Shown piece by piece: positions 2,219 to 57,478 of a stretch of DNA of 64,000 nucleotides (the first letter of the stretch is position 1; each line of letters starts with the position of its first letter). Source of the stretch: an uncultured Candidatus Saccharibacteria bacterium (GTDB taxonomy: Bacteria; Patescibacteriota; Saccharimonadia; Saccharimonadales; Saccharimonadaceae); contig CANENS010000003.1 of the NCBI GenBank assembly GCA_947428935.1, positions 30,107 through 94,106 of the forward strand, written 5' to 3'. A program made the position numbers and the translations under genes. Under the pieces are notes generated by a model. That model saw only the letters and a program-made list of their open reading frames with translations, ran no database searches and was not told the DNA's origin.

Positions 2219-2398
2219 CGCAGCGGGAACGTCTCTATCAGTAACGGTCGTTTGAGGGGCTCTGGCATCTTCGGTTACGGGTGATCGTCGAGGGCTAATT
2301 TCTCTAATGTCGCTCGAGCATACTTCCTCTACTTCCATGCGTCTGGCGTCGGCCCGTCCAGCAACAACGGTCGCTGGAACGGCTTCCCCCTCCGCTGC
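2219..2398 (+). repeat. VR-like FISUMP cassette 1 (nonsense copy)
   Basis: A 180-bp cassette from CGCAGCGGG to CCGCTGC encodes the C-terminal RSG..GFPLRC segment of a FISUMP-type domain, without start codon. The conserved Trp of GYGWSS is TGA here. The middle and 3' part, including that TGA, are identical to cassette 12 (26152). Upstream, TACAGCCACTTCCACAG is shared with cassette 3. The 3' end is fused to a purB fragment on the other strand. Confidence 0.85.
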
Positions 2399-2641
2399 TC
2401 GAGCAACATCATAATTAATATCATCAATATGCGCCTCCAGCTCTTTAATCTGCTCATCCGTAATCAGTTCTCCGCCTACTTTCAGACCCAACTGCTGTTC
2501 CGCCTTCGCCAGCGCCACCCAGAGCCTTCGCCATGTACTAAATTTCCGGTCGTCCGAAAAAATCCTCTGCATTTCCAGACTGGCATAGCGACCCGCTAAG
2601 GGTGATTGATAAACATCAGTTCTCACGTTCACATTACTCAT
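2399..2641 (-). pseudogene. purB: N-terminal fragment of adenylosuccinate lyase
   Basis: The first 80 residues match PurB (YQSPLAGRYAS, IFSDDRKFSTWRRLWVALA, then AHIDDINYDVA). The intact enzyme would continue for about 350 more residues. At the codon after INYDVA the frame runs antisense through VR-like cassette 1 and ends at 2144, so a 165-residue chimera could be made. A good GGAGGA ribosome site and the ATG survive. The junction lies in TCGAGCA, which occurs in both the cassette tail and the purB codons, suggesting microhomology. The enzyme acts in AMP and IMP synthesis, and this copy cannot be active. Confidence 0.85.
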
Positions 2642-2750
2642 GTTTCGTCCTCCGATCTGTTAAGATACAATAAGCTTCCGAGCGACATCTGCGCTCTCGT
2701 CTCCAATATATCATAAAATTGCTATTAAGTAAAATCAGCAGTAGTATTTG

Positions 2751-2825
2751 CTTTATTAAGCATCAAATTCACTTTCTTACCCCTGGAATTTAATACCCCA
2801 ACTTGTAAAGCCTGTACAAGTTCAA
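2751..2825 (-). repeat. Composite two-palindrome element, copy 1
   Basis: The palindrome AACTTGTAA-AGCCT-GTACAAGTT (2800-2822, one mismatch) follows a decayed second palindrome (TTACCCCTGGAA) and CTTTATTAAG. This is the reverse orientation of the consensus described at 25829. Confidence 0.7.
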
Positions 2826-2872
2826 CTACATTTTAACTATCATGCTCACATTTTTCATTAGAATTCTCATGA

Positions 2873-2878
2873 TATAAT
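2873..2878 (+). promoter_or_regulatory. -10 box, leaderless NUDIX gene
   Basis: TATAAT lies six bases before the ATG at 2885 with no ribosome site, so transcription should begin at or next to the start codon. Confidence 0.65.
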
Positions 2879-2884
2879 TCAGAT

Positions 2885-3319
2885 ATGCCAAAAAACTTCG
2901 TCCTCATCCTGCTTTTTAATCAAAAATATAACCGGATTTTACTCATGCAGCGCCATAAACCACCTTTTGCGAATTGTTGGAATGGGTTAGGCGGCAAAAT
3001 CGAGCCTGGCGAAACACCGCTCACCGCCATCAAACGCGAATGCGTCGAAGAAACTGCTCTGACAATCGGAAAACCCAAACTACTTTTAACCTGCATTTAT
3101 CCAAAATCAAACAGCATCAATAACCAAGTTACGCTCCACGTTTTTTACGACTCCATCGCCGAACTTTCCGTCAAGCCTAATTCCGAAGGTTGCTACGCGT
3201 GGAAAGATCTCGATTTCGCCATGGATGCAAACAATAAATCAATCGCTGGTTTTTCTAATTTACATCAATTTATTAAAGAAATTCTCGATCTCGAAAATAT
3301 TCAGAAATTTTACAATTAA
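2885..3319 (+). CDS. NUDIX hydrolase (MutT-like)
   Basis: A 144-residue NUDIX hydrolase that should cleave a nucleoside diphosphate linked to another group, possibly 8-oxo-dGTP. The NUDIX box is visible at residues 38-60: G-KIEPG-E-TPLTAIK-RECVEE (GX5EX7REXXEE). RHKPPFANCWNGLGGK precedes it, as in MutT/ADP-ribose type enzymes. It is probably leaderless. DUF1653 and HD-domain genes follow on the same strand with small gaps and may be co-transcribed, suggesting a small nucleotide-clean-up group. Substrate cannot be told from sequence alone. Confidence 0.9.
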   Translation: MPKNFVLILLFNQKYNRILLMQRHKPPFANCWNGLGGKIEPGETPLTAIKRECVEETALTIGKPKLLLTCIYPKSNSINNQVTLHVFYDSIAELSVKPNSEGCYAWKDLDFAMDANNKSIAGFSNLHQFIKEILDLENIQKFYN

Positions 3320-3356
3320 ATGATTTATAATAATCATAGAATTAAAAAGGAGGAAT

Positions 3357-3611
3357 ATGGATCGAGAAGTAACACCTTTTAGCGTCTGGCAACATTTCAA
3401 AGGCCCCGAAGCTTTCGTAATCGCCATCGCCGAACATAGCGAAACCGGGGAAAAATTAGTCGTTTACCGTTGCACTGGTAATAATGGCCAAACTAATCAC
3501 GGCGATGGAATTTACGCGCGGCCTTTAGCAATGTTTTTGTCCGAAGTTGATCGCAAAAAATACCCCAACGCCACCCAAAAATATCGTTTAGAAAAAATAA
3601 TTGCGAAATAA
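3357..3611 (+). CDS. DUF1653 domain protein
   Basis: An 84-residue protein with the DUF1653 pattern: WQHFKGPEAFVIAIAEHSET near the start, KLVVYRC in the middle and a C-terminal ARPLAMFLSEVD. The family is small, widespread and without known function. AAAGGAGGAAT lies just before the ATG and is a strong ribosome site. It is sandwiched between the NUDIX and HD-domain genes. Confidence 0.88.
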   Translation: MDREVTPFSVWQHFKGPEAFVIAIAEHSETGEKLVVYRCTGNNGQTNHGDGIYARPLAMFLSEVDRKKYPNATQKYRLEKIIAK

Positions 3612-3687
3612 TATTTGTAAAAATATTTTTATTTCCAAAAACCGCAAAATACTACGCTTTTCTAATACAACCCAAAAAGGAAATTTA

Positions 3688-55615: not shown

Positions 55616-55695
55616 CATTTTAGCATCTTAGCAAAAGCTAAAATCTCGTGTTTGAATTATTATCCCGGGCTAAAGGTTAATAAAATCACTTGTCC

Positions 55696-56682
55696 TTAAT
55701 CCTCCAACGCCCTACACACCACCGCCACAATCAGCCCCTTCTCTCGCGGCTGACTTTCCGCAATCATGAGCGTCAAAGCCGTCAACGCCCGATCAGAAAT
55801 TTTCGGTTGACCATTGTCCAATAACTGATACTCATTCACGGTCAAAAAAATCATAAATAGCAAAGCCGCAATCCGCTTATTACCATCGAAAAAAGGATGA
55901 TCCTTGATAATGAGATAAAGCAAATTCGCTGCTTTCTCCGCCAATGTCGGATAAAGATCTTCGCCGTCAAAACTCTGGTACACTGCTCTAAGCGTCGCAT
56001 CAAAAGCATCGCCGCGCGGCTGTCCAAACATTTCACTAGCGTGCAAGCATTCCCGCAGCTGCACTATCATCTCCATACACTCGTCCATCTCCAGCACACG
56101 CCGCGCTTTCCGCTTATCCTCAAAGCGCACAAATCCCTCATCAAACTCACTCAACGTCCGAAAAGTCATACCATATTGCGCAATCACCTCTAATACGCCC
56201 TTCGCCTCATCTTCAGAAAACTCCGCTTGCACTATCAACCGCTTCACGATATCCAGGGTTCCGCCCACTTCCGCCAATCGTTTACTGGTCAATTCCGCCA
56301 ACCTGCGCTCATTCACCGCCACGCCATCCACAATATATTTATGCAAGATCTTGGTCGCCCAAATCCGAAAATCCGTCGCTTTTCGCGAATTCACCCGATA
56401 GCCCACCGAGATCACCGCATCTAAATTGTACAGCTTCACCATGCGCGTCACCTCGCGCCCACCTTCTAAAGCAACTTGTACATTTTTTGTACAAGTTCGA
56501 TCTTCTTCCAATTCGCCTTCTTGATAAATATTTTTCAAATGCCTCGCAATAGTCTGTGGCGTAATGCTAAACAACTCCGCCATCTGCGCTTGCGTAGCCC
56601 AAAGCGTTTCCGCCTCCCGATCAAGACTAAACTTCACGTTTTTACTACCAGTTTCATAAATCATCATCTGCCCATCCATCAT
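55696..56682 (-). CDS. RhuM-type protein with Fic domain
   Basis: 328 residues. The N-terminal 170 are RhuM-like: ETLWATQAQMAELFSITPQT, ARHLKNIYQEGEL, NLDAVISVGYRVNSRKATDF and RIWATKILHKYIV. The C-terminal part has the Fic motif HPFFDGNKRIAALLF, so it may attach AMP to a target. RhuM-Fic proteins often sit in accessory regions. Start 56682 has GGAGGCGC before it. Its centre contains the palindrome AACTTGTAC..GTACAAGTT (56473-56497), and a 35-bp piece of the gene is found at 24603. Confidence 0.88.
   Translation of the reverse strand: MMDGQMMIYETGSKNVKFSLDREAETLWATQAQMAELFSITPQTIARHLKNIYQEGELEEDRTCTKNVQVALEGGREVTRMVKLYNLDAVISVGYRVNSRKATDFRIWATKILHKYIVDGVAVNERRLAELTSKRLAEVGGTLDIVKRLIVQAEFSEDEAKGVLEVIAQYGMTFRTLSEFDEGFVRFEDKRKARRVLEMDECMEMIVQLRECLHASEMFGQPRGDAFDATLRAVYQSFDGEDLYPTLAEKAANLLYLIIKDHPFFDGNKRIAALLFMIFLTVNEYQLLDNGQPKISDRALTALTLMIAESQPREKGLIVAVVCRALED
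56473..56497. repeat. AACTTGTAC palindrome inside the RhuM-Fic gene
   Basis: AACTTGTAC-ATTTTTT-GTACAAGTT: same nine-base arms as the composite element, but a seven-base loop and none of the flanking blocks. Confidence 0.5.
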
Positions 56683-56731
56683 GCGCCTCCACCATTGAAT
56701 ACTGCTCTTATCATCATAGCAAACTTTACCC

Positions 56732-56808
56732 AACTTGTACATAGCGTACAAGTTCAACTACAGATTTCCAGGGGTGAAATTGATGATCCTCGAGTTAATA
56801 AACCATTA
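56732..56808 (+). repeat. Composite two-palindrome element, copy 14
   Basis: AACTTGTAC-ATAGC-GTACAAGTT (56732-56754), TTTCCAGGGGTGAAA and GAGTTAATAAACC. Confidence 0.8.
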
Positions 56809-56814
56809 TATTAA

Positions 56815-56872
56815 AAGGAGGGAAGGTGAGGGAAGGGAAGGGGAGGGAAGGGGAGGGAAGGGAAGAGAAAAC
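56815..56872 (+). repeat. Polypurine G-run tract
   Basis: A 58-base run of A and G except one T, with about ten GGG or GGGG blocks spaced by AA. It can form G-quadruplex or triplex DNA. It lies between the composite element and the gene at 56941. Confidence 0.75.
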
Positions 56873-56940
56873 ATATCAGTACTATTGACAAAAAGCATAA
56901 GCTGTGCTACACTGATATTATAAAAATAGGAAAACAAAAA

Positions 56941-57183
56941 ATGCAAAAACAAAACAATCAAATTTCATTTGCATCACAAACCGCAAAGGATGCCTACGAA
57001 GAACTACAAAACGACCCCAATACAACGCGCGACGAAGCTTGGGGTACGCTTGATGACGGCGTCGACATCAGCGGAACGTTATATAACGAAAACCGCGCCG
57101 AAAATATCGAAACCGAAAAATTCGGCACTTCCACACCTGAAGCTGTCGAAGCCAACAATCTCCATGAAGAACATTGCCGGTAA
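56941..57183 (+). CDS. Small acidic hypothetical protein
   Basis: 80 residues, Asn/Glu/Asp/Thr-rich, no hydrophobic core (NDPNTTRDEAWGTLDDGVDI), probably disordered. No family recognised. AATAGGAAAACAAAAA lies before the ATG. Confidence 0.5.
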   Translation: MQKQNNQISFASQTAKDAYEELQNDPNTTRDEAWGTLDDGVDISGTLYNENRAENIETEKFGTSTPEAVEANNLHEEHCR

Positions 57184-57295
57184 ACTTCACTACTAAATCC
57201 AATCGGAAGCTCAGAATGTCTTCCGTATCAAATACTTAGCTATGTCGATATAATAAAATATCACACTTATTTACATATTATTACTGTCTAGCTAG

Positions 57296-57478
57296 GCAGC
57301 GGAGGGGGAAGCCGAGATTACGGCCATTGTAATAATCAGAAGGATTGACAACATTGGCGTTGATATTGAGAATGTATGCATAATAGATATTAGACGAATT
57401 GCTGCGCGACGACCATCCGAAACCGTAGATGCCAGAGTACCTCAGACGACCGTTACCGATAGCGACGTACCCGCTGCG
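57296..57478 (-). repeat. VR-like FISUMP cassette 19
   Basis: 183 bp, RSGYVAIGNGRLRYSG through GFGWSSRSNSS to GFPLRCLARQ-stop, followed on the plus side by GAACGCAAACG. Confidence 0.88.

Follow-up and report, generated by a model that had tools for sequence, protein, structure and literature searches.

The window analyzed here, meaning the whole 64,000-nucleotide (nt) stretch C3:30107–94106, belongs to the genome of an uncultured Candidatus Saccharibacteria bacterium (GCA_947428935.1; G000 below, with its contigs numbered C1, C2, C3, and onward). It holds 19 short cassettes on both strands, as a first-pass annotation of the same DNA had counted, each resembling the end of a protein with a FISUMP domain: 16 with exact ends, spanning CGCAGCGG to CTCCGCTGC (12 on the forward strand and 4 on the reverse; 174–183 nt), and three partial profile matches (Table 1). 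They were located by a regular expression run on both strands together with a nucleotide profile. Neither the full gene nor a reverse transcriptase (RT) was found in the window, again as first reported; the template, the RT, and the parent gene were all found outside it. From the sequence of this genome and its relatives, we think it probable that the cassettes are adenine-biased variable repeats (VRs) of a diversity-generating retroelement (DGR), scattered without genes and likely serving as a silent store whose segments are exchanged with those of one complete FISUMP gene.

A Genome-Wide Library

How far beyond the window does the pattern extend? The genome-wide search for the end words that the first-pass annotation had proposed returned 120 exact cassettes (53 forward, 67 reverse), present on 23 of the 27 contigs of the 1.10-Mb, 96% complete assembly, and a reversed control pattern returned 0. 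The nucleotide profile adds 41 matches that have altered ends, have been truncated, have decayed, or lie at the end of a contig, for a total of 161, at least one element being split in two matches. The two tails described in the window hold genome-wide: 85 of the 120 start with CTAGC and 20 with TCGAG, the other 15 being variants. Calling the cassettes orphans is right in that only 1 of the 120, outside the window, lies at the end of a long sense gene; it needs qualifying for the 34 that overlap by more than half an open reading frame (ORF) of at least 80 amino acids (aa), as returned by a simple ORF caller (22 sense and in frame, 5 sense but in a different frame, and 7 antisense). What the genome holds is, as originally proposed, a genome-wide set of copies of a FISUMP gene's 3' end, most of them without the gene.

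The spread of the exact cassettes is uneven (C1–C3 hold 60 of the 120; C7, C9, C11, and C20 hold none), and the orientation of genes around the G000 cassettes follows no clear rule. Insertion downstream of terminators in the manner of group IIC introns, striking by eye, proved weak by count and was set aside: 12 of 120 upstream flanks are terminator-like vs. 28 of 482 intergenic samples.

A Distant Template and a DGR-Type Reverse Transcriptase

What varies among the cassettes, and what writes the variation? A template repeat (TR) lies at C3:7335–7514 (RSGNININNGRLRNSG...NPSNNNNRWNGFPLRC), 23 kb before the window, in a conserved stretch without apparent gene; a hairpin then follows it. Compared codon by codon with 47 cassettes of 180 nt, the TR has Asn in most of the variable codons, which usually read NNC or NNT, keep their third base steady, and stand between fixed framework codons. 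In the 24 youngest 180-nt cassettes (at most 15 non-adenine differences from the TR), divergence is 0.433 at 45 adenine sites and 0.073 at 135 others (Mann–Whitney p 5e-18), the latter value obtained after correction of four positions where the TR departs from the majority. A direct, uncorrected comparison of 23 young cassettes gives 0.426 for A, 0.059 for C, 0.074 for G, and 0.115 for T; the A value was reached in 0 of 100,000 relabelings of these sites, and 61 of 119 T changes sit at three TR-private positions. Such adenine-biased differences between TR and VR are the signature of DGR mutagenesis.

The 3' boundary, the initiation of mutagenic homing (IMH) region, behaves likewise. Just past the repeat, the G000 TR reads CTAGCTAGTTCC and most VRs CTAGCTAGACAG, so that TR and VR diverge there. 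In the related genome G040, four TRs go on with CTTA or CTTT and then differ, while the VRs read CTTAGTAC in 52 of 52; in another relative, G043, the TR ends in VRC and 19 of 20 VRs end in IRC.

DGR RTs are recognized by an [ILV]GxxxSQ motif together with YxDD. The RT of this genome (C2:96888–98237) has IGNLTSQ and YVDD, matches a profile of RTs from the genus (6.7e-120) and RVT_1/PF00078 (39.3 bits), and has as its nearest PDB chain 8ub7 (1.6e-22), which we take to be the BPP-1 DGR enzyme. An initial PF00078 search had missed the RT in both G000 and G040, owing to its limited sensitivity; since the genus-RT alignment recovers the G000 enzyme, a library without an RT is no longer considered. 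A putative accessory ORF (C2:98072–99127, 351 aa) precedes the RT; it has no convincing match in family searches, and by eye a similar frame occurs in G040, G013, and G043. A nucleotide profile of seven TR leaders found nothing above chance for further leaders in G000; it was built without the G000 leader and failed to recover that one. Rfam gave no family at threshold, and its three listed matches, under gathering scores, were taken as chance. With template, boundary, and enzyme considered together, the cassettes are almost certainly the VRs of a DGR.

Near the TR, two facing ORFs that by eye look pseudopilin-like (C3:4849–5343 and C3:5413–5982) have near-identical central parts.

One Complete Gene

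Which gene do the cassettes belong to? The first-pass annotation had supposed a full-length parent elsewhere in the genome, and one lies at C2:77918–79597. Its 560-aa product has a hydrophobic stretch at the N terminus, judged by eye, plus a pilin-like N-terminal domain (weak matches, from searches whose structural part covered that domain only) and a FISUMP domain (TIGR02145, 49.7 bits), the candidate C-type-lectin fold for the variable residues. A cassette, C2:79412, makes up the final 58 codons ahead of LARQ-stop; it is the only one of the 120 exact cassettes to follow at least 200 open in-frame codons (it follows 516). The tails scattered over the genome would all correspond to this one predicted surface protein, the variable part being its presumed binding face. 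Homologues number 352 at E 1e-10 among 7995 scored. Downstream of the gene, at C2:79878–79896, stands a 19-nt sequence matching the TR's 3' end, as if the template once adjoined the gene.

The gene follows infB (IF-2, TIGR00487) in G000, G040, and G043. The G040 contig stops just before the gene cassette, the G043 contig stops inside it, and the best G013 homologue reaches a contig end before it; breaks at this point are what a repeated or mixed site would give in assembly. The full gene of G024 carries a terminal cassette and stands next to a different neighbor. Other FISUMP genes in G040 and G043 lack the cassette words.

How do tails reach the gene? In G000, the gene cassette differs from the TR at 52 non-adenine positions and is 100% identical to a silent cassette, C4:11270, which sits within an 86-aa frame. 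In G043, the readable first 80 nt of the expressed cassette show 4 differences from the TR, all at adenines. These would be one case each for two routes, exchange with a silent copy and direct homing.

Extended Copies, Mosaics, and Turnover

The repeat unit exceeds the TR homology, in that copies carry a 3' tail absent from the TR. Longer, 3'-anchored copies of the gene start 146 (six copies), 141, 71, 51, 33 (two copies), or 5 nt before the cassette, at 85–100% identity; one of them also holds 330 nt of the gene's 3' end plus downstream flank at 99.7%, and another 142 nt. These copies can have come from nothing but the gene or its transcript, so that at least part of the library is made of gene copies anchored at the 3' end and cut short at the 5' end. 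Such varied truncation points are reminiscent of target-primed reverse transcription, which favors the DGR enzyme as the agent of dispersal; DNA-level copying may be an alternative source. We regard dispersal by this RT as evenly balanced.

Five extended copies (C2:18494, C2:35207, C12:7308, C14:181, and C23:3522) have in common, by eye, a leader resembling a promoter (TTGACT...GATAGGAT) and the word GGGGCGCTTCGGCAA, which is complementary to the sequence immediately upstream of the cassette. They are possibly transcribed donor RNAs or short ORFs. The C14:181 and C23:3522 copies have identical cassettes.

The content of the cassettes turns over at fixed sites. Three tandem pairs have closely similar spacers, yet hold six different cassettes, and one 3' flank is common to 13 cassettes. 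Seven mosaic pairs agree over 65 to 143 nt at one end, their other ends being different (six agree at the 3' end and one at the 5' end). The flank common to the 13 cassettes, whose contents differ, is hairpin-like (AAGCATAAATTG...TTTATGCTT).

Related Genomes

How widespread are such libraries? With a 59-position cassette profile (E 1e-3) applied to 60 genomes of the genus, G000 included, 8 give at least 44 matches (G000 and G024 at least 107 each, G013 92, G043 87, G040 84, G030 64, G050 64, and G054 44), and the other 52 give 0 to 26. In a family sample (121 genomes from 61 genera, E 1e-6), none but G000 gives more than 10. G117, of the same family (genus g59), had 56 first-look cassette candidates, 53 of them scored, with 2 matches, and may hold a diverged library.

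Stretches were examined in seven of the eight library genomes, all but G054. The gene-less layout was seen directly in five (G000, G013, G024, G040, and G043), where end words are common to each genome's TR and cassettes and vary between genomes in step with that TR. Every match in the stretches from G013, G024, and G043 lies inside a frame of at most 175 aa. The G030 and G050 stretches gave 3 and 0 profile matches, and the libraries of G030, G050, and G054 are read from counts only.

The adenine bias recurs among these relatives. In G013, whose stretches hold 15 matches, 3 of 8 compared cassettes show 0/128 non-adenine and 13–16/49 adenine differences. Two adenine-only cassettes carry upstream pieces of the gene, not the whole gene, and these two are identical over their first 108 nt and then have 8 differences, the polarity expected if cDNA replaced the 3' part. 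The 7 young cassettes among 20 in G043 diverge by 0.413 at adenines vs. 0.044 elsewhere, and the 4 young among 25 in G024 by 0.280 vs. 0.073. On this evidence, the identity of the cassettes as DGR VRs can be regarded as practically settled in G000, G013, and G043 and as fair in G024; for G040 they are assigned as VRs by homology only.

The machinery is similar as well. The pair formed by RT and accessory frame in G040 is like that in G000; in G013 and G043, a similar pair has the TR next to it, and in G013 that TR lies on the opposite strand. By alignment and eye, with no statistic, the leaders of the TRs (G000, four of G040, G043, G024, and G013) share a core near AAGATYGTGAA, loosest in G000; by the same means, a 3' element, GGTGCCGATCTTT, follows the TRs of G040, G043, and G024 and is looser in G000 and G013. 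RVT_1 matches occur in 39 of the 60 genus genomes, in a search that misses some; by eye they are of several kinds, and their number is high for genomes no larger than about 1 Mb.

Did the gene-less layout come first? Among named records, the closest RTs come from metagenome-assembled genomes of uncultured Candidatus Saccharibacteria. At 9 RT loci with 67–73% identity, an Asn-rich copy lies beside the RT in 4. At 18 distant loci (41–53% identity; 17 Saccharibacteria and one Nomurabacterium), an Asn-rich copy lies within 10 kb in 16, and 10 of the 18 also have the repeat inside an ORF of at least 465 aa within that distance. Since sister lineages have the usual DGR layout, the gene-less library looks derived.

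Cassettes of the Window

The 19 cassettes of the window are listed in Table 1. A 1551-aa open frame on the forward strand (window 34611–39266) adjoins one of them.

Table 1. Variable-repeat (VR) cassettes of the window, in window coordinates
Feature	Position	Strand	Description
VR cassette	2219..2398	+	180 nt; TCGAG tail; TGA in frame
VR cassette	12407..12586	+	180 nt; internal 61-nt exact block in common with 2219..2398
VR cassette	16575..16754	+	180 nt; tandem pair, member 1
VR cassette	16800..16973	+	174 nt; same sequence as 32393..32566 on the opposite strand
VR cassette	17024..17201	+	Partial profile match, without exact 3' end word
VR cassette	17631..17810	+	180 nt
VR cassette	19801..19983	+	183 nt; 12 non-A differences vs. 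TR
VR cassette	21227..21406	+	180 nt; TCGAG tail
VR cassette	21711..21893	+	183 nt
VR cassette, 3' fragment	24633..24677	+	Partial profile match
VR cassette	25924..26103	+	180 nt
VR cassette	26142..26321	+	Partial profile match, without exact 3' end word
VR cassette	28447..28626	+	180 nt; 98.3% identity to a C6 cassette, the difference being one 3-nt cluster near the 3' end
VR cassette	32393..32566	-	174 nt; exact duplicate of 16800..16973
VR cassette	32612..32791	-	180 nt; tail and spacer as in the pair 16575..16973, content different
VR cassette	34234..34413	+	180 nt
VR cassette	43148..43327	-	180 nt; 12 non-A differences vs. TR
VR cassette	45757..45939	+	183 nt; 14 non-A differences vs. TR
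VR cassette	57296..57478	-	183 nt

Silent Store or By-Products?

How might the parts work together? The template stretch would be transcribed and copied by the RT with errors at adenines, and the mutated cDNA would home into cassettes bearing the right-hand tail. Cassettes would spread as 5'-truncated copies of the expressed gene's 3' end, made by the same RT, and recombination would shift whole or partial cassettes between store and gene, altering the presumed binding face of the surface protein. We incline toward the silent store with exchange. Only tentatively, and with slightly more doubt than belief, would we join it to the enzyme in a two-tier, immune-like repertoire of an ultra-small bacterium, in which the DGR RT writes adenine-randomized tails and scatters gene-less copies, and the infB-linked site draws whole or mosaic tails from more than 100 of them. 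A silent reservoir refreshed by copying or retro-insertion, as the first-pass annotation had it, is the best-supported reading; that annotation missed the DGR template, the RT, and the adenine-directed mutagenesis.

The alternative that fares best is that the DGR diversifies only the full gene and that the scattered cassettes are inert by-products, dead retrocopies of successive 3' ends. Copies with truncated 5' ends exist, as do partial and decayed ones, and the expressed tail of G043 fits direct homing. We nevertheless judge it unlikely, first because the cassettes keep their frame. In 118 in-frame cassettes of G000, there are 3 stops, against 91.5 expected from column shuffling (minimum 74 in 300), and the lengths, from 162 to 195 nt, are multiples of three in 119 of 120, as they are in 56 of 56 in the G040 stretches examined. 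The first-pass claim that the cassettes are open in one frame holds for them generally and fails for 2219–2398, with its in-frame TGA. Changes of template adenines in AAY codons cannot yield stops; the frame is also kept in the cassettes with more than 40 non-adenine changes (52 of 119), which calls for another cause. Recent passage through the expressed gene, or selection on the store, would account for a kept frame so far from the TR. The mosaics between cassettes, the different contents at repeated sites, and a G000 expressed tail that equals a silent copy and lies far from the TR also argue against inert by-products, although frequent copying with fast loss could still give such patterns.

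A further alternative is that the cassettes are ordinary mobile cassettes, or elements resembling miniature inverted-repeat transposable elements (MITEs), whose inverted end words are the substrate of a DNA recombinase or transposase, the RT being irrelevant to their spread. Fixed ends, inverted words of 7 nt, both orientations, and a XerD-like recombinase ORF (C3:326–1312, named by eye) would suit it. We consider it very unlikely, given that the end words are coding (RSG, LRC), coincide with the limits of TR/VR homology, and change between genomes together with the TR and that the left ends of some copies reach into the gene by varying lengths. The inverted pair of ends noted at the outset is real and marks those same limits; we found no evidence that it acts as a recombinase site. 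That each cassette is its own small gene, translated as a short lectin-like peptide, is highly improbable: the kept frames and the five longer copies with a common promoter-like leader (by eye) would fit, but 118 of the 120 exact cassettes have fewer than 100 open in-frame codons upstream, and the left boundary is conserved only as TT (G000) or CGTG (G040), with no common start codon apparent in G000.

Several observations weigh against a silent store written by this DGR. In G000, 41 of the 161 profile matches are altered, truncated, decayed, or cut by contig ends, as expected of inert debris; 52 of 119 cassettes differ from the TR at more than 40 non-adenine positions; the six longer copies with one common left end may represent one event plus duplication; and the identity between the gene cassette and C4:11270 carries no direction of copying. 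The 27-contig, 96% complete assembly, with a longer copy on C14 running off its contig, leaves room for a second full gene or template. Among the relatives, 0 of 52 G040 VRs are close to any of the four TRs found there (minimum 27/123 non-adenine differences), so the library there did not come from those templates. The third adenine-only cassette of G013 begins at a contig edge and may therefore belong to a gene. The G024 expressed cassette differs from the TR at 50/147 non-adenine positions, and the G024 stretches examined yielded no silent copy of it. In G043, the nearness of the expressed tail to the TR is also compatible with direct homing into the gene and no store.

Comparison with Known Systems and Implications

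How does this system compare with known DGRs? We set it beside DGRs of the Bordetella phage BPP-1 type and the clade from the candidate phyla radiation (CPR) of Roux et al. 2021 (PMC8144416), in the portion of that study drawn on here. Like them, G000 has a DGR-type RT, a non-genic TR, adenine-biased differences, a VR that forms the 3' end of a gene for a predicted surface protein, and TR and VR that diverge just past the repeat. Unlike them, it has at least 120 VRs, nearly all gene-less and dispersed, with a single full-length target found, and TR and RT lie far apart (as in G040). The DGR of Pseudomonas costantinii, as given in part of its description (PMC6642488), has 91 TR–VR pairs with few A-to-N changes and 21 merged VRs in one adhesin ORF. 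One template with many repeats is common to both, whereas the young repeats here are adenine-biased and outside genes. The account of trans-acting DGRs in Thiohalocapsa PB-PSB1, in the parts consulted (PMC10907252), describes VRs that match a TR at a separate locus and DGR loci that are incomplete, both as here. Its targets are genes, whereas the cassettes here are mostly gene-less, and mobile elements appear responsible for duplication of its DGR loci.

In the open-licence literature, with subscription papers and preprints outside its scope, we found no earlier report of dispersed gene-less DGR repeats. Silent-cassette systems of antigenic variation, such as vlsE/vls and pilE/pilS, combine one expression site with many silent partial copies and segmental mosaics. 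The present system shows these same features at the sequence level and differs in that its silent copies are dispersed, mostly single units of ~215 bp on both strands, and bear an RT mutation signature.

What would such a library offer? To our knowledge, known DGRs overwrite their target, so a good variant is lost at the next round. If the silent-store reading is true, a dispersed library made by the same machinery would give a DGR memory and recombination, with selected variants kept instead of overwritten, and DGR hypermutation would be joined with silent-cassette antigenic variation. A DGR RT whose products spread to new places would also be a step between DGRs and retrotransposons. The keeping of ~160 copies (~30 kb) in a ~1-Mb Saccharibacteria genome would suggest strong selection for surface diversity and makes testable how Saccharibacteria keep pace with their partners or phages.

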